Of a stretch of DNA of 53,695 nucleotides, positions 20,014 to 29,957 are shown piece after piece (position 1 is the first letter of the stretch; each line of letters opens with the position of its first letter). The DNA is taken from positions 1 through 53,695 of the forward strand of contig VXNZ01000047.1 in the NCBI GenBank assembly GCA_009840355.1, given 5' to 3'. This DNA is from Chloroflexota bacterium. GTDB lineage: Bacteria > Chloroflexota > Dehalococcoidia > Lucifugimonadales > JADFKI01. The notes below the pieces were generated by a model that saw nothing but the letters and a program-made list of their open reading frames with translations, had not been told where the DNA came from and ran no database searches. Position numbers and translations under genes: made by a program.

Positions 20014-20473
20014 GGGATGATATGCCTTCGCCGTAGTTAGCCTTTCCCCTTCCCAAATTGTGCGTCAGTTTGCCATTGTGCTGCGTGGCTTGGAACTACG
20101 GAAAACTGCGCAGACCGGAGCATCCGCGCGCCGATTGCGCTATTGTGCGCAAAAGTATAGCCTAACAGTAGCCTTTGGGGTATAATACCTGCGGTCAAAC
20201 CGCTAGTTGTTCACCATGCAGTTTTCGTTGTGGTATGATTGTTGCGGCGCGGTCTATTCCGCATTGGGCTGACTCGCCAAGGCTGAATCGCCGCGAAATC
20301 TGAATCATCGAGAAAAGGACGGCTGTTCCCAAGCATCCTTCAACGATGTATTGAACAATTTTAGTAAATATATAGAAAACTGTGCCCGCTAAGGTCTGTT
20401 ATGTTCAAGCGGGTTGTGGTATTGTTCATACTTGAGCAATGAAACTCAAAAGCAAGGAGGAAAGACTCTTAGC
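20014..20473. other. 460-base stretch without a gene
   Basis: No convincing gene on either strand. It contains a TATAAT at 20181-20186 without a good -35, and an imperfect palindrome ATTGTTCA-TACT-TGAGCAAT (20421-20440) shortly before the next gene's ribosome site. It is probably the leader and promoter region of the surface protein gene. Confidence 0.45.
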
Positions 20474-21508
20474 ATGTCTATGTCTAAGCTTCTGATTACA
20501 CTCGGTCTCATACTCTTGATGACTACGCCCATCGCGGTCGCGCACGCAGACGCGCATCCATACAGCGGCTCTGGCACTGCCGTTGTATCGGACGCTGGCG
20601 CAATGAGCGATAAGGTCACATTCTCTATGTCCGGAGTCACAAGGCTCGAATCCGGAATGGCGTACGAAGGCTGGCTGGTCAACAGCGACTCCGATGACAA
20701 GGTCAGCACCGGCGTTATGACCGTACTGCCTGACGGCAGCATCAGCCATTCTTGGACTGATCCGGATGGCGGAAACATACTCGCCATGTACGATACCGTG
20801 GCGATTACGGTTGAGACGGTGCCGGATGACGACCCCGGCCCATCTGCAACTATGGCATTCGCCAATACGCTTCCAAGCAATTTGCTTGGCCCCGTTCGCG
20901 AACTTGTCGTAGGCGAGCAGGCGGTGGCATATATGCTACAGACGCAGGTTGGCGCGGCGATGAGCAAGATTAGCGACGCGCAGGCCGCCGACGACCTGGA
21001 TGCTCTTCACGCCTCTACCCAAGAAGCGGTGGACATAATCGACGCCGATGACGGCGTCATCGCGCTGGCAGCGAAGACCACGGAACTCGGTTCGATTGTG
21101 TATCAAGCCGCAGTTGATGCCGTTGTCAAAGATGCTTGCGAGTGTGTAACGATGTCCGGGGAAAATATACAGAGTTGGGCTGCGTCAGCCAAGGAAGATG
21201 CCGCTGCGGTTATGGCAGAGGATGACCTTGATACCGCCAAGGTCCTGCTAAACATAGTTAACGGCAAGCTGATGGCAGCGGCGGACGGGATTGAAGCCTC
21301 CGACATGGGCGGCGCAAGCGACGCATACATGAGCGCGCAGCGCATGGCGACATTCACACTGCCGCCGCCTACCCCCGCAGCAGCCCCCTCAGTTGGCGAC
21401 AACTATGTGCCGACCACGATGCATCTGATGCTCTTCGCAGCGCTGATGCTCCTAGCCACCGGCGGTGCCCTGCTCTACAGGGAGCGCAGGCTCGGTGCAA
21501 GGGCATAA
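20474..21508 (+). CDS. secreted, C-terminally membrane-anchored protein with an RskA-like domain
   Basis: A 344-residue protein with a signal peptide (LLITLGLILLMTTPIAVAHA) and a C-terminal transmembrane helix (about 316-334) followed by RERRLGARA, so most of it is outside the cell. The N-terminal module (YEGWLVNSDSDDKVSTGVM to VAITVETVPDDDPGPS) resembles the extracytoplasmic domain of anti-sigma-K-type proteins. The middle is Ala/Asp-rich and helical. Before the anchor is a Pro-rich PPPTPAAAP segment. No cytoplasmic sigma-binding domain is present, so it is not a complete anti-sigma factor. GGAGG lies 13 bases before the ATG, a long spacing. The function is unknown. Confidence 0.7.
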   Translation: MSMSKLLITLGLILLMTTPIAVAHADAHPYSGSGTAVVSDAGAMSDKVTFSMSGVTRLESGMAYEGWLVNSDSDDKVSTGVMTVLPDGSISHSWTDPDGGNILAMYDTVAITVETVPDDDPGPSATMAFANTLPSNLLGPVRELVVGEQAVAYMLQTQVGAAMSKISDAQAADDLDALHASTQEAVDIIDADDGVIALAAKTTELGSIVYQAAVDAVVKDACECVTMSGENIQSWAASAKEDAAAVMAEDDLDTAKVLLNIVNGKLMAAADGIEASDMGGASDAYMSAQRMATFTLPPPTPAAAPSVGDNYVPTTMHLMLFAALMLLATGGALLYRERRLGARA

Positions 21509-21587: not shown

Positions 21588-21623
21588 GAGAGACTCCATC
21601 CGCATAAGTGGATGGAGTCTCTC
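21588..21623. terminator. perfect 14-bp hairpin after the surface protein gene
   Basis: GAGAGACTCCATCC pairs perfectly with GGATGGAGTCTCTC around an 8-base loop (GCATAAGT). There is no U-tract after it (GCGCG follows). It may end transcription, protect the 3' end, or be a binding site. Confidence 0.5.
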
Positions 21624-21739: not shown

Positions 21740-22465
21740 ATGAAAATGCACAACATCAAGAGGCCAAAGCCCACCCTCGTTCTAAGCATTATGCCGCTGC
21801 TGCTGGCGACAGCATTGTTCTCGCAGGCATGCGGCAGCGCGTCTGCGCCTGCGACGCCCACGCCAATAAATCCGCAGGCGATACTAGACGACTGCGGTCG
21901 CACGATGGCAGCGCTAAAATCGTATCGATTTCACATCGAACATGAAGGCGGCAGCACTCCGTTGAATCAGGGGATGTCGCTCACGGAGGCGAGCGGGGAA
22001 GTCGCTGTGCCGGACAATCTCGCCCTCGATTTCACTGGCGCGGCGGGCAACTTCGCCGTCAAGGGCAGACTCATCGCCATCGGAGAGGATGTGTATATGA
22101 CCAATCCGCTGACCGGCGAGTGGCACGCGGCGGCGGCCGCGCTCAGTCCGCTGAAGTTTTTCGCGCCGTCGCAGGGCATCGCGGAGATACTGTCGCAAGT
22201 GCGAAACCCTACGCTCATATCGCACGACGACGGCGTATTCCGCATCGGCGGCGCACTGCCCGCATCGGCGCTCGCGCCGCTGTTCGGCGAAACAAAACCC
22301 CAAAGCAGCGTCGATGTAACGCTGACAATCGACAAGGCGCATCTGCACCTCACGCGCGCCGAACTGCAAGGCATCATCACGCCGACCGAACCCGCCGGCA
22401 TCAAGCGCGCCATCACGCTGTCTAACTTCAACGAGCCGACGGGCATAGAAGCGCCGGTGGGTTGA
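21740..22465 (+). CDS. LppX/LprAFG-family lipoprotein (LprG-like)
   Basis: A 241-residue lipoprotein of the LppX_LprAFG family. The signal peptide ends in LFSQAC, followed by a short Pro/Thr spacer (APATPTPINPQAIL). The mature part has the family features: AALKSYRFHIEHEGG, EASGEVAVPDNLALDF, GEDVYMTNPLTGEW, and the end TLSNFNEPTGIEAP. Mycobacterial LprG binds triacylated lipids in a hydrophobic cavity and works with the adjacent P55 MFS pump. Here an MFS exporter resembling P55 follows 185 bases downstream, so a lipid-carrier role is a reasonable inference. ATG 21740 is chosen to give a compact signal peptide; a second ATG lies at 21746. Confidence 0.82.
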   Translation: MKMHNIKRPKPTLVLSIMPLLLATALFSQACGSASAPATPTPINPQAILDDCGRTMAALKSYRFHIEHEGGSTPLNQGMSLTEASGEVAVPDNLALDFTGAAGNFAVKGRLIAIGEDVYMTNPLTGEWHAAAAALSPLKFFAPSQGIAEILSQVRNPTLISHDDGVFRIGGALPASALAPLFGETKPQSSVDVTLTIDKAHLHLTRAELQGIITPTEPAGIKRAITLSNFNEPTGIEAPVG

Positions 22466-22650
22466 TAGTGCAATCACGCGCCATGAACATAGAGATTAGC
22501 TTCTCGCAGACAAGCAAATTGCGCCATCCTAACCTTACTACTGAGGGTGAAGGGACATTTCGTAACTCGACCCAGTGGCAGTATGTACAATAGGCACGTA
22601 ATCACTTGGGATAGTTAGCACAGGACTGTCATGTTGGTTAGGATGGCGCA

Positions 22651-24156
22651 TTGAACACGGATTTGTCGCGCGGTAGGGCTTATCTCGCGCTGGCGGTGGT
22701 GGGCGCCGGGGTGTTTGTGGCGGCGGACGACCAGACGGTCGTTGTCACTGTCCTGCCACAGATGATGCTCGACCTCAACCTGACGGTTGTCGAGCTGGAC
22801 CACACTTCTTGGATTATCACCGGATACCTGCTCGGATATGTAGCGGCGATGCCGTTCATCGGCAGGCTGTCGGACATCTGGGGGCATCGTAGCACGTTCG
22901 TGGCATCGCTGCTGCTGTTCGTGATTGGGTCGGCGGGCGTTGCGCTGGCGACCGACATCAACTGGCTCATCGGACTGCGCGTGTTTCAGGCGCTGGGAGC
23001 GGGCGCGCTCGTGCCAATCGCAATCGCAATCGTCGGCGACCTGTTCCCGCCGGACAAGCGCGGCGCGCCACTTGGACTGGTCGGCGCGTCAGCCGAGGCA
23101 GGCGGCGTCATTGGACCGCTCTGGGGCGGCGCCATCACCAAGTTTTTCGCGTGGCAGTGGGTATTCTGGCTGAATATCCCGCTCTGCGCCGTCATCATTG
23201 CAGGCACGCTAATCCTGCTGCCGAAAAGCCCGCGACATCCGGCAAGGTTTGACTACATCGGCGGCGCACTCGTAACGACGAGCCTTGCCGCGCTAACACT
23301 CGCATTGGCGCGAATCGACGAACTCGACGCGCTGATGGTGTTGTGGTTTGCGCTGGCTGCGGTCTCGCTAGGACTGTTCGTGCTGAGGCAGAGTACGGCG
23401 ACGGACCCGCTGTTGCCGCGAGCGATGTTCCGCGTGCGCGCGTTCGTCGCGGCGAACGCGGCGCACCTGTTCGTCGGCGGCGCACTGATAATCGGCATGG
23501 TAACCTTGCCGTTGATGGCAAACACGCTGCTGGGCGAATCGCCGTTGGGCGGCGGGCTGATGCTGCTGAGAATGACGGCGGCGATACCGGCTGGCGCGGT
23601 GCTGGGCGGCATCGCGTGCCAGCGATACGACTACCGCCTGCCAACCGCACTGGGACTGATGCTTGCGGCGCTGGGCTTCTGGTTGATGAGCGGATGGGAC
23701 TTGGACATCGCGGACCCATGGCTGACCGTGCATCTGGCAACTGCGGGATTCGGCTTTGGGCTACTCATCGCGCCCATCGCGTTGGCGGCAACGAACTCCG
23801 TCTCCGACGATGTGCGCGGCGCGGCGGCGGCGCTGATAACCACGATGCGCGTAGTTGGGATGACGCTCGGAGTCGCCGCGCTGACGGCGTGGGGAACGGG
23901 CAGATTCGACGACCTGGTGAAGGGCGTCGGCGCGCCTTTCGCGCTACCCGGCGAGACGGCGCAACAAGCGCAAGCGCGAATCGGCGAAATACAGCAGCAG
24001 CTCACGGACGCAGGCTTGACGCTGTTCAGCGATTTCTTCGTAGTGGCGGCTGCGCTGTGTGTTGTCGCGCTGGCGCCGGCGGCGTTTATGGGGTGGCGGG
24101 GGAGAACGGGCAAGATGAAAGGCATTGGCAAGGCAAAACGCCGTTACTGCCAATAA
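22651..24156 (+). CDS. MFS transporter, P55/EmrB-type drug or lipid exporter
   Basis: A 501-residue integral membrane protein of the DHA2 branch of the major facilitator superfamily, consistent with 14 membrane segments. D-D-Q-T-V-V-V-T-V-L-P (about 26-36) in TM1 and GRLSDIWGHR (about 71-80, motif A) are clear. The stretch WIITGYLLGYVAAMPFIGRL is very like the mycobacterial P55 pump as I remember it. With the LprG-like lipoprotein upstream, it may move lipids to the outer side of the membrane. It starts at TTG 22651 with AGGA nearby. It converges with brnA across 7 bases. Confidence 0.87.
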   Translation: MNTDLSRGRAYLALAVVGAGVFVAADDQTVVVTVLPQMMLDLNLTVVELDHTSWIITGYLLGYVAAMPFIGRLSDIWGHRSTFVASLLLFVIGSAGVALATDINWLIGLRVFQALGAGALVPIAIAIVGDLFPPDKRGAPLGLVGASAEAGGVIGPLWGGAITKFFAWQWVFWLNIPLCAVIIAGTLILLPKSPRHPARFDYIGGALVTTSLAALTLALARIDELDALMVLWFALAAVSLGLFVLRQSTATDPLLPRAMFRVRAFVAANAAHLFVGGALIIGMVTLPLMANTLLGESPLGGGLMLLRMTAAIPAGAVLGGIACQRYDYRLPTALGLMLAALGFWLMSGWDLDIADPWLTVHLATAGFGFGLLIAPIALAATNSVSDDVRGAAAALITTMRVVGMTLGVAALTAWGTGRFDDLVKGVGAPFALPGETAQQAQARIGEIQQQLTDAGLTLFSDFFVVAAALCVVALAPAAFMGWRGRTGKMKGIGKAKRRYCQ

Positions 24157-24782: not shown

Positions 24783-25919
24783 ATGGGTTGGTCTATTCAT
24801 CATCCGGTCGGGCTGATTCACTATACGCCGGCGGCTTGCTATACGGGCTACACGCTGTTTTCCACCACGCACGGAGGCAAGAACACATACCTCATCGATA
24901 TGGCGGGCAATCTCGTCCACCGCTGGCAATTGGACGAGGGCATAGCCTATGCGTACCTGCTGGACAACGGCAATCTGCTATGCCGCGTCGCCCGTCCGAG
25001 AGACGCCGGCGGCGTGGAGACTTTGGGCGGGTCGGCGGCGGCAATCGTGGAATTGGACTGGGACAGCAACATCGTCTGGGCGTACCGCGACCCGATGCTG
25101 CACCACGACTTCGAGCGCATGCCGAACGGCAACACGCTGCTGCTGCTGTGGGAGGCACTCCCTAAAGAACTCGAAGCGCAGGTGAAGGGCGGTTTCGATG
25201 TCGATTTCGCGCCGGGCATGCTGGGCGATGTCGTGCGCGAGGTTACGCCCGACGGCGAGACCGTATCAGAGTGGCACTCTTGGGAATACTTGGATGTTAA
25301 CGAAGATATAATAAGCCCGCTTAGCCCGCGCCGCGAGTGGACGCATGCCAACTGTGTGAACCTCACGCCCGACGGCGATATGCTGGTGAGCTTTCGCCTG
25401 ACCAGCACGGTGGGCATCGTAGATAGGGCAAGCGGCGAGTACAAGTGGAAGTGGGGCCCGGGCGAAATATACCACCAGCATCATCCGACTTGGGTGGACG
25501 GTGGGCGCGTGCTGCTCTTCGACAACGGAGCGCAGAGGCCGGGCGTGAACTACTCGCGCGTAATAGAAGTGGACCCGGCGACGAATGAAATCCACTGGGA
25601 ATATCGGGGCGCGCCGGCAATATCGTTCTACAGCTACAACATTAGCGGCGCGGATCGACTACCTAACGGCAACACGCTTATCTGCGAAGGTGCGCCGGGG
25701 CGTTTCTTCGAGGTTACGCAGCGCGGCGAAATCGTCTGGGAGTACATCAACCCACACTTCGTTTACGGCAGAATGACGGGCGGCGACGGTATGGAAAACT
25801 CGAACGCCGCATTCCGCTGCCACCGCTACAGCGCGGACCATCCGGCGCTCATCGGGCGAGATCTGGATCCGGGGCGATATGTGAATACGAATAGGTTGAT
25901 GGCGCGGGGCTCGGGGTAA
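24783..25919 (+). CDS. arylsulfotransferase (ASST)-family protein
   Basis: A 378-residue protein of the arylsulfotransferase family, a beta-propeller in which repeated HHDFERMPNGNTLLL- and ADRLPNGNTLICEG-type segments mark blades. Family enzymes move a sulfate group between phenols without PAPS, using a catalytic histidine. Candidate histidines are in MLHHDFERM and YHQHHPTW. Characterised bacterial ASSTs are periplasmic, but no signal peptide is seen here (MGWSIHHPVGLIHYTP), so it may be a cytoplasmic relative with another role. AAGGGGG precedes the ATG. With FGE, rhodanese and the sulfite-oxidase-like gene it adds to a sulfur theme. Confidence 0.8.
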   Translation: MGWSIHHPVGLIHYTPAACYTGYTLFSTTHGGKNTYLIDMAGNLVHRWQLDEGIAYAYLLDNGNLLCRVARPRDAGGVETLGGSAAAIVELDWDSNIVWAYRDPMLHHDFERMPNGNTLLLLWEALPKELEAQVKGGFDVDFAPGMLGDVVREVTPDGETVSEWHSWEYLDVNEDIISPLSPRREWTHANCVNLTPDGDMLVSFRLTSTVGIVDRASGEYKWKWGPGEIYHQHHPTWVDGGRVLLFDNGAQRPGVNYSRVIEVDPATNEIHWEYRGAPAISFYSYNISGADRLPNGNTLICEGAPGRFFEVTQRGEIVWEYINPHFVYGRMTGGDGMENSNAAFRCHRYSADHPALIGRDLDPGRYVNTNRLMARGSG

Positions 25920-27403: not shown

Positions 27404-27430
27404 GACTTTTCATGAGGGCTGATATACAAT
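27402..27430 (+). promoter_or_regulatory. transposase promoter
   Basis: TTGACT (27402-27407), a 17-base spacer and TACAAT (27425-27430) make a near-consensus housekeeping promoter. It lies between the left inverted repeat and the transposase ribosome site, AGGGAG. Confidence 0.7.
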
Positions 27431-27459
27431 TCTCCCATACTAAGAACAGGGAGATAGAT

Positions 27460-28341
27460 ATGAACCTCGTGCAAGTCTTTCACCGCTTTCCCACTCAAGA
27501 AGCCTGCATTGAGCACCTCGAAAAGGTACGCTGGAATGATAACCCATCCTGCCCGCTATGCCAATCCGAGAATGTGGCGCGCAAGGCTGATGGGGAGCGG
27601 ATAGGACGCTGGAATTGCCATGAGTGCAAGTCCAGTTTCAATGTCCTATCCGGCACGATATTCCAGCAGACGAGACAGCCGTTGCAGAAATGGTTTCTCG
27701 GTATATCGTTGATACTGAACGCCAAGAAAAGCCTCTCAGCGCACCAGTTGGCGCGAGACCTCGACCTAACGGTGCCCACGGCGTGGCGCATGGCTCACCA
27801 GATACGCAAGGCAATGAATGACAGCGATGCCGAGATGTTGAGCGGCATTGTGGAAGCAGACGAGGCGTATATCGGCGGGAAGCCTCGCAAGCACAATCAC
27901 CGCGACAAGAACAATCCCCCCCCCGCAAAGCGCGGTCGTGGAACTCGCAAACTCCCCATAATTGGCGCGGTTGAGCGCGGCGGTCGTGTAGTAGCCAAGC
28001 CGTCCATTAGTGTCAACATGTCGGCTCTCACCGACTTCTTGAGTCGGAATGTCGAGCCTGAAGCACTGCTAATCACAGACGAATATGGCGGCTACAATGC
28101 GATGCACAAGCGCATGCGCCACGCCACTATTGACCATTCAGTGCGCTACGCCGATGGGATTGTTCATACGAACACCATCGAAGGCTTCTGGTCAAATCTC
28201 AAGCGGGCATGGTATGGACAGCATCACCACTATTCCCGCAAGTTCGCTCCCGCCTATGTCATTGAGGCTTGCTACAAGTACAACATCCGCAAGTCCACTG
28301 ACGCCTTCGGCTCGTTCCTTCGGTCGGCGGTGCTGGCATGA
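27460..28341 (+). CDS. IS1595-family transposase
   Basis: A 293-residue ISXO2-type transposase. The N-terminal zinc ribbon is C31-C34 and C53-C56 (PSCPLC ... WNCHEC), followed by a helix-turn-helix region (LSAHQLARDLDLTVPTAWRM). The DDE/N catalytic core has the first Asp in VEADEAYIGG (about 134), the second in LITDEYGGY (about 206), and the third acidic/Asn motif in HTNTIEGFWSNLKR (about 237-240). ATG 27460 follows AGGGAG by six bases; the upstream frame opens inside the promoter and is not used. The frame is intact, so the enzyme is probably active. Its stop overlaps the passenger gene's ATG. Confidence 0.92.
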   Translation: MNLVQVFHRFPTQEACIEHLEKVRWNDNPSCPLCQSENVARKADGERIGRWNCHECKSSFNVLSGTIFQQTRQPLQKWFLGISLILNAKKSLSAHQLARDLDLTVPTAWRMAHQIRKAMNDSDAEMLSGIVEADEAYIGGKPRKHNHRDKNNPPPAKRGRGTRKLPIIGAVERGGRVVAKPSISVNMSALTDFLSRNVEPEALLITDEYGGYNAMHKRMRHATIDHSVRYADGIVHTNTIEGFWSNLKRAWYGQHHHYSRKFAPAYVIEACYKYNIRKSTDAFGSFLRSAVLA

Positions 28342-29957
28342 ACAAACTCTATTACGGCGATTGCCTCACCATCATGATGGAAATGCCCTCAGCAAGCGTT
28401 GATCTGATATACCTAGACCCGCCGTTCAACTCAAATCGTCAGTACAACGCAATCTACAAGGATGAAACAGGGCGACAGCTCCCTGACCAGATAGAGGCGT
28501 TCTGCGATATGTGGGAGCTGGACGCCGAGCGCGATCGCGCTATCCGAGCCATGCCTGTCTTGATGCGCGACGCAGGGATTGACGATGCGATAGCCGAGTT
28601 CTGGAAGCTCTGGATGCGCGCCTTGCGCGACACACAACCGCGTCTGCTTGCCTACCTGTCCTATATGGCGCAACGCCTACTGGTGATGCACAGGCTCTTG
28701 AAGCCGACAGGGAGTATCTACCTTCATTGCGACCCAACGGCAAGCCATTACATCAAGGCTCTCATGGACGCCGTATTCGGGCATGCGAACTTTCGTAATG
28801 AAATTATTTGGCGGCGTACTTCGGCTCACAACAACGCAAAAGGGTATGGGAATGTCACAGATACCATTCTCTATTATCATCGCACAGAACATGCCATATG
28901 GAATCCAATTTATGGGCAAGAGTATTCCGAAGCGCAGTTGTCGAGATATAGAGCAGACGAAAATGGACGCCTCTATCGGGGTGACGACTTAACGGCTCCT
29001 GGTTCGAGCCGTATGTTTGAATGGCGAGGGACTACTCCCCGCACGAGGGGATGGGGGCATTCAGTTGAGGCCCTCGAGCAACTTTGGGGGGAGGGACGGA
29101 TTTTACTGAAGCGCGACGGTACGCCCCGATTGGATGGGCATAAGAGGTATCTTGATGAAATGCCAGGTCCACCAGTACAAAATCTTTGGACGGATATTCC
29201 ACGCATTGGGAACACATCTGGGGAGAGGATGGGTTATGCTACCCAGAAACCCCTCGCCTTATTGGAGCGCATCATTTCCGCGTCCAGCAACCCCGGCGAT
29301 GTTGTACTTGACCCATTCTGTGGCTGCGCTACTACGCTGGAGGCAGCGCACAGCCTCGACAGAAGGTGGATAGGTATAGACATAGCGATTCACGCGGTCA
29401 AGCGCGTTGCGCGTATCAGGCTGAATGAGCGGCTGGGACTGGTGGAGGGTCAGGACTTTGAAATCGAAGGCGTGCCGCGCAATGTCGAGGGCGCGAAAGA
29501 CCTTTGGCAGAAAGACCCCTATCATTTCCAGAAATGGGCGGTGGAACAGGTGGAGGGCTTCGTGACAACTCGCCGCGCGGCGGATGGTGGAGTCGATGGG
29601 CGGCTGTACTTTGCCGTTCCCCACGCTCAGGACTTGCAAAGCATGGTGATAGAGGTCAAGGGCGGTAAGAATGTCAGCATTCGAGACCTACGCGCATTGA
29701 AAGGTGTCCTGGATTATGACGATGGGCTAATGGCGGGCTTGATTATCATGGAGCCTCTGGGCAAAATCAAGGCACGGAACTTTGAGCGATTCTCAGCAGA
29801 CGCCGGAACGCTGGATATACTGGGGATAGAGTATCCGCGCATGCAGATACTGACGGTGGAAGAGATATTCGAGGGTAAGCGATTCGCTACGCCGACAGTG
29901 GCGGGCAGGCATACGCTCGAACCGAGAATGCCGGGTATCCCCGCTGTGGGAGTTTAA
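28338..29957 (+). CDS. DNA methyltransferase fused to a PD-(D/E)XK nuclease domain, IS passenger
   Basis: A 539-residue fusion. The N-terminal two thirds are a beta-class DNA amino-methyltransferase: D27-P-P-F30 (motif IV), YATQKPLALLERII, then motif I VLDPFCGCATTL (about 322-333) and WIGIDI. After a linker, about 400-490 carries a Mrr-like nuclease signature: GGVDGRLYF (near 415), then MVIEVKGGKN (near 436), giving the D...ExK arrangement. It could therefore both modify and cut DNA. ATGA overlap couples its translation to the transposase, and its TAA overlaps the right inverted repeat. It shares family architecture with the methyltransferase at 7535. No separate specificity or restriction subunit lies in the element. 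Confidence 0.87.
   Translation: MNKLYYGDCLTIMMEMPSASVDLIYLDPPFNSNRQYNAIYKDETGRQLPDQIEAFCDMWELDAERDRAIRAMPVLMRDAGIDDAIAEFWKLWMRALRDTQPRLLAYLSYMAQRLLVMHRLLKPTGSIYLHCDPTASHYIKALMDAVFGHANFRNEIIWRRTSAHNNAKGYGNVTDTILYYHRTEHAIWNPIYGQEYSEAQLSRYRADENGRLYRGDDLTAPGSSRMFEWRGTTPRTRGWGHSVEALEQLWGEGRILLKRDGTPRLDGHKRYLDEMPGPPVQNLWTDIPRIGNTSGERMGYATQKPLALLERIISASSNPGDVVLDPFCGCATTLEAAHSLDRRWIGIDIAIHAVKRVARIRLNERLGLVEGQDFEIEGVPRNVEGAKDLWQKDPYHFQKWAVEQVEGFVTTRRAADGGVDGRLYFAVPHAQDLQSMVIEVKGGKNVSIRDLRALKGVLDYDDGLMAGLIIMEPLGKIKARNFERFSADAGTLDILGIEYPRMQILTVEEIFEGKRFATPTVAGRHTLEPRMPGIPAVGV

Follow-up and report, generated by a model that had tools for sequence, protein, structure and literature searches.

Work on the LprG-Rv1410 pair (Rv1411c-Rv1410c) has treated it as a locus of virulence and drug tolerance in mycobacteria, with a role in sealing the mycomembrane. 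Loss of the pair in mycobacteria leads to a build-up of triacylglyceride (TAG) in the cells, and its overexpression to more TAG in the medium (PMC4709180). The Rv1410 (P55) homologue of Mycobacterium hassiacum, MHAS2168 (8pnl), carries an ion lock, E157-R426, that mycobacterial homologues share and 46 other MFS proteins lack; it has been termed a hallmark of Rv1410, and mutating it inactivates Rv1410 (PMC10576003). MHAS2168 also has a D35-R118 pair, and long extensions of TM11 and TM12 are required for transfer to LprG (PMC10576003). A 10-residue insertion between TM9 and TM10 forms a β-hairpin in MHAS2168.

We analysed a window of 53,695 nt from a Chloroflexota bacterium (contig VXNZ01000047.1 of assembly GCA_009840355.1), in which a lipoprotein gene (21740-22465) is followed by an MFS transporter gene (22651-24156). 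Translation of the window placed both ORFs on the + strand at the coordinates first assigned to them, and their order and orientation are, as the first-pass annotation had it, those of the mycobacterial locus. Like LprG-Rv1410 (8pnl; LprG 3mh8, 3mha and 4zra), the pair consists of a PF07161 lipoprotein and a P55-clade MFS protein with the ion-lock Glu and Arg, an N-domain Asp/Arg pair and long TM11 and TM12. Unlike mycobacterial P55, the transporter lacks the TM9-TM10 hairpin insertion, and only about a third of the residues are identical. The locus also differs in its host, a Chloroflexota genome without Omp85 and WS/DGAT, in an RskA_C-like gene upstream and in an intergenic gap of 185 nt. 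The lipoprotein has its fold in common with LprF and LppX, two further PF07161 lipoproteins of Mycobacterium, as the transporter has its DHA2-type MFS fold in common with EfpA, EmrB and QacA. The nearest named genome is the Chloroflexi bacterium MAG SB0664_bin_29 (L127; 94% identity over the MFS protein), followed, in a scan of named genomes, by Chloroflexi and Dehalococcoidia MAGs. No paper on LprG or LppX in Chloroflexi was found in the open-licence literature, subscription papers being outside the scope of the search.

Features of the lipoprotein and the transporter

The lipoprotein ORF starts with ATG at 21740 and stops with TGA at 22463-22465. Its product has an N-terminal signal peptide with the lipobox LFSQA/C (Cys at 21830), which is PROSITE-compatible yet non-canonical, followed by a Pro/Thr linker and a single PF07161 domain. 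In Pfam, PF07161 scored 47.9 bits (E 1.9e-12, positions 2-189 of 192) against a curated cut-off of 24 bits, and the lipoprotein is the sole PF07161 match of its genome. It is a member of the PF07161 (LppX_LprAFG) family, and the LppX/LprAFG features which had been read from the letters were borne out by profile and fold matches alike. An earlier lipoprotein profile included two actinobacterial LprG sequences and was biased to LprG, and the search was rerun with Chloroflexota rows only; the order of the matches was unchanged and the scores were weaker. This Chloroflexota-only profile matched LprG in the PDB at 1.4e-6 and LprF at 7e-4, while the value for LppX, 0.65, was not significant.

The AlphaFold model of the lipoprotein (pLDDT 93.6) has the half-barrel lipid-carrier fold of LprG and LppX. 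LprF (Z 21.7) and LprG (21.6 to 20.9) were tied as its fold matches, the latter including PIM- and TAG-bound forms (TAG-bound 4zra, Z 20.9); LppX followed at 15.8, and LolA- and RseB-like proteins did not exceed 12.6. The LprG label of this protein rests on its linkage to P55 and on the profile scores.

The transporter ORF starts with TTG at 22651, preceded by an AGGA Shine-Dalgarno-like sequence that is conserved in relatives, and stops at 24154-24156. Its top PDB match was 8pnl/MHAS2168, with 233 bits (E 4e-68), the next being EfpA (111 bits) and QacA and EmrB (about 90 bits). TIGR00711 scored 189.9 bits, under its cut-off of 230.2, and the protein is of DHA2 type. The AlphaFold model (pLDDT 93.6) matched 8pnl with a Z of 50.2 over 466 residues, EfpA being second with 42.0. 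In the model the last two helices span 37 and 36 residues (382-418 and 433-468), so that the transporter has the extended TM11/TM12 of P55/Rv1410, and the TM11-TM12 stretch measures 58 residues against 52-60 in actinobacterial P55. Alignment showed that the protein carries the ion lock as E149/R400 (E157/R426 in MHAS2168 numbering) as well as D27, R110, Q113 and N175, and that M283 occupies the hydrophobic cavity-lining position of MHAS2168 L299. The TM9-TM10 stretch is 10 residues shorter than in MHAS2168, and no strand is predicted there in the model. The remaining rows shown for Chloroflexota and Thermoleophilia are likewise short in this stretch, so that the hairpin appears to have been added later in Actinobacteria and not to define the P55 clade.

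The ion lock was found in all three actinobacterial P55 proteins, in 48 of 71 Chloroflexota P55-clade proteins and in 0 of 23 other DHA2 proteins. In the remaining 23 of the 71, all from a Chloroflexia/Thermomicrobia-like branch, Thr replaces the Glu. This branch retains the Arg and the pairing with a lipoprotein (L033, L043, L050, L057, L058, L176 and L197). Across 80 named loci, the lock was present in 68 of 71 MFS proteins with a lipoprotein upstream versus one of nine without, the lone unpaired case (L137) being truncated by a contig end.

Conservation and ancestry of the pair

A gene-order survey of Chloroflexota had been proposed along with the original observation, and it supported the linkage. 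PF07161 was present in 29 of 60 relatives and, in a sample drawn from the whole phylum, in 157 of 400 genomes. A P55-like gene, on the same strand and within 1.5 kb, lay next downstream of the PF07161 gene in at least 93 of the 141 PF07161-bearing Chloroflexota genomes listed, with a median gap of 86 nt among the listed genomes of the phylum sample. In the independent scan of named genomes a lipoprotein was encoded upstream of the MFS gene in 71 of 80 loci, which include Chloroflexota, Thermomicrobiales, Thermoleophilia, mycobacteria and the non-mycolate Actinomycetota Actinoplanes, Glycomyces, Actinomadura and Planotetraspora; the other nine comprise eight low-scoring non-P55 DHA2 proteins and L137, which starts at a contig end. 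By both counts, the same-strand order of lipoprotein and transporter is far from chance. The pair is widespread in Chloroflexota, and its linkage is conserved in both Chloroflexota and Actinomycetota.

In two rooted maximum-likelihood trees the transporter fell inside one P55 clade (support 100/99), separate from EfpA, EmrB, other DHA2 proteins and the paralogues of its own genome. Together with the best PDB match and the retained ion lock, this upheld the proposed resemblance to P55. A generic DHA2 pump was excluded as a reading by the trees and by the ion lock, the comparison set being DHA2 paralogues from five genomes, EfpA and EmrB; the latter two lie outside the P55 clade and are without the E+R lock, and the comparison with QacA was limited to score and fold. 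Actinobacterial P55 proteins are surrounded by Chloroflexota ones. Constraining Chloroflexota to one clade was rejected (p-AU 0.025), and constraining Actinomycetota to one clade was not (p-AU 0.37). This topology fits an origin that would predate mycobacteria, whether by vertical descent or with transfer towards Actinomycetota.

The lipoprotein tree gave a different answer on the naming of the first gene. Mycobacterium tuberculosis LprF and LppX lie inside the actinobacterial branch with LprG, and the Chloroflexota lipoproteins lie outside this branch, as far as one LprF and one LppX row on long branches can place them. They thus form no clade with LprG that excludes LppX and LprF, and a place outside the LprG clade, which the first-pass annotation had named as refuting its reading, is formally what the tree shows. 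Since LprF and LppX are nested there beside LprG, the lipoprotein is, by this tree, a putative co-orthologue of LprG, LprF and LppX together. It is encoded next to P55, as LprG proper is, and this linkage looks ancestral in a tree with single LprF and LppX rows and long branches. We also observed that the pair of a Thermoleophilia MAG (L148) groups with those of two Chloroflexota MAGs (L147 and L150) in both trees, which means that either the two genes were transferred together or the MAG was mis-binned.

Chloroflexota are without the mycobacterial outer layer. Because the pair is nevertheless widespread in this phylum, the textbook role of the LprG-P55 system looks too narrow, and the system itself older than that role. 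Its presence, with the essential residues, in Chloroflexota and in non-mycolate Actinomycetota means that its basic job cannot be the sealing of a mycomembrane, and the textbook account, in which TAG seals this layer, cannot hold as it stands for the Chloroflexota pair. The Chloroflexota pairs are natural variants in which the parts of a general mechanism (ion lock, TM11/TM12) can be set against actinobacterial additions (TM9-TM10 hairpin).

Proposed mechanism, cargo and destination

Homology, clade membership, key residues, predicted folds and conserved linkage were all observed for the pair. We consider it to be a lipid-extraction unit which works like mycobacterial LprG-Rv1410 (P55), with a probability of roughly two in three. 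Since the mechanism-defining residues and the fold are conserved, we infer a lipid substrate, along with the direction and coupling of its transport. The transporter would draw a highly hydrophobic lipid out of the membrane into its own cavity and turn outward upon formation of the E149-R400 ion lock, with proton coupling via D27/R110. The lipid would then travel along the extended TM11/TM12 into the pocket of the lipoprotein, itself anchored in the membrane, for delivery by this protein to the surface or wall of the cell.

Common residues and a common fold are no proof that the transporter acts on a lipid. Some DHA2 relatives export drugs, QacA too has an element between TM11 and TM12, and P55 itself was originally described as a drug efflux pump (PMC10576003). 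Alternatively, the transporter could be a DHA2 efflux pump for drugs or secondary metabolites, acting on small amphiphilic compounds, with a lipoprotein that merely aids capture or stability. EfpA, EmrB and QacA are indeed among the better solved matches, and the nearest Chloroflexota MAGs may meet many toxic metabolites. However, EfpA has less than half the sequence score of P55 and is not part of the P55 clade, and the ion lock, which other DHA2 proteins lack, accompanies the lipid-carrier lipoprotein; such a pump is therefore unlikely.

Lipid extraction by the pair raises the question of which lipid is exported, and where to. The WS/DGAT C-terminal domain PF06974 gave no match in the host genome against 11 in the Mycobacterium control, and was likewise absent from another pair-bearing genome of the phylum (G173), the sister MAG and a Thermoleophilia MAG. 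PF06974 was run with this positive control because PF03007 alone gave no match anywhere, controls included. Omp85 was not found in six Chloroflexota genomes including the host, with seven positive controls. As a marker for PIM/LAM-type lipids, inositol-phosphate synthase was not informative, as even the Mycobacterium genome had no match. Since there is no WS/DGAT domain and no Omp85, neither the known mycobacterial cargo nor the known destination is evident in the host.

The idea of a shared, older lipid-export route, to which such a pair would point according to the first-pass annotation, survives in part. The pair does occur outside Actinobacteria and, from the rooted trees and the rejected constraint, appears to predate mycobacteria; the triacylglyceride route, in contrast, is unsupported, with neither the WS/DGAT C-terminal domain nor Omp85 in the host. 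We do not claim that TAG is exported to an outer layer, which is not proven and is less to be expected given the absence of WS/DGAT. A triacylglyceride made by WS/DGAT is probably not the cargo, and some other apolar lipid, or TAG from a different route, is more likely. That the pair moves TAG as in mycobacteria, with the TAG coming from an acyltransferase unrelated to WS/DGAT, would be consistent with the conserved ion lock, M283 cavity-lining position and TM11/TM12 extension and with the match of the lipoprotein model to TAG-bound LprG, but PF03007 (silent in controls too) and PF06974 are without a match in the host and several pair-bearing genomes are also without WS/DGAT, and we rate this version as improbable.

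Genomic setting and intergenic repeats

Directly upstream of the pair, at 20414-21508 on the + strand, lies a gene for an RskA_C-like exported protein with a C-terminal membrane helix. PF10099 matched its product with 32.4 bits (cut-off 29.4), and this was the only PF10099 match in the host genome. At least 17 related loci have a homologue of this gene immediately before the lipoprotein-P55 genes. In Dehalococcoidia the pair is often last in an ECF sigma/RskA-type anti-sigma locus: in 11 related loci (L128 214-5372, L129 1052-6479, L130 496-5952, L212, L214, L215, L219, L134, L136, L138 and L186) ECF sigma, RskA-type anti-sigma, RskA_C-like gene and lipoprotein stand in a row with P55 at the end, the separate RskA_C-like gene being missing from L134, L136, L138 and L186. 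The window's genus has no sigma and anti-sigma genes beside the pair and retains only the RskA_C-like gene. Neither the more distant Chloroflexota that were examined (Chloroflexia and Thermomicrobia) nor Actinomycetota showed a sigma row near the pair.

The sigma row suggests envelope-stress control of the pair in part of Dehalococcoidia. We tentatively raise a wider possibility, to which we give less than even odds: the LprG-P55-type exporter of Dehalococcoidia may be the output arm of an ECF sigma/RskA envelope circuit and serve cells without a mycomembrane or an Omp85 outer membrane, the mycobacterial TAG exporter being a specialised branch of an older system. RseB and MucB have a LolA-like fold. 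In view of the 11 loci and of RseB and MucB among the fold matches of the lipoprotein (Z 8.3-9.6), this protein could instead be mainly a sensor of the RseB/MucB kind, reporting the lipid state of the envelope to an RskA-type anti-sigma factor, with the transporter as one output of the ECF regulon; this is very unlikely, as LprG and LprF, with Z 21-22, are much closer fold matches than RseB with 9.6, the host keeps the pair without any other PF10099 protein, and the pair occurs without a sigma locus in Chloroflexia, Thermomicrobia and Actinomycetota.

Downstream of the pair, the window contains an arylsulfotransferase-like gene, an IS1595-type transposase-like gene and a DNA methylase-like gene (24783-25919 and 27412-29957), the last two labels coming from translations. 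No link is visible between the pair and these genes.

Between the RskA_C-like and lipoprotein genes we noted a perfect 14-nt inverted repeat with an 8-nt loop (21588-21623, + strand). No T run follows it, and it is possibly an attenuator or a repeat. The stretch between lipoprotein and transporter genes (22520-22650, + strand) is bounded by a perfect 15-nt inverted repeat with arms at 22520-22534 and 22636-22650. The 3' arm overlaps the Shine-Dalgarno-like sequence of the transporter gene, and the repeat could hide this ribosome-binding site in the transcript. The 3' arm is conserved in the sister species (L127) but the 5' arm is not. We considered this stretch of about 132 nt as a MITE and dropped the idea, as the 3' arm is native and common to the sister species and there is no second full copy. 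Differing palindromic repeat-like insertions were observed in the same gap of relatives (L127 2034-2472; L012 about 2100-2340), and this gap seems prone to insertions.
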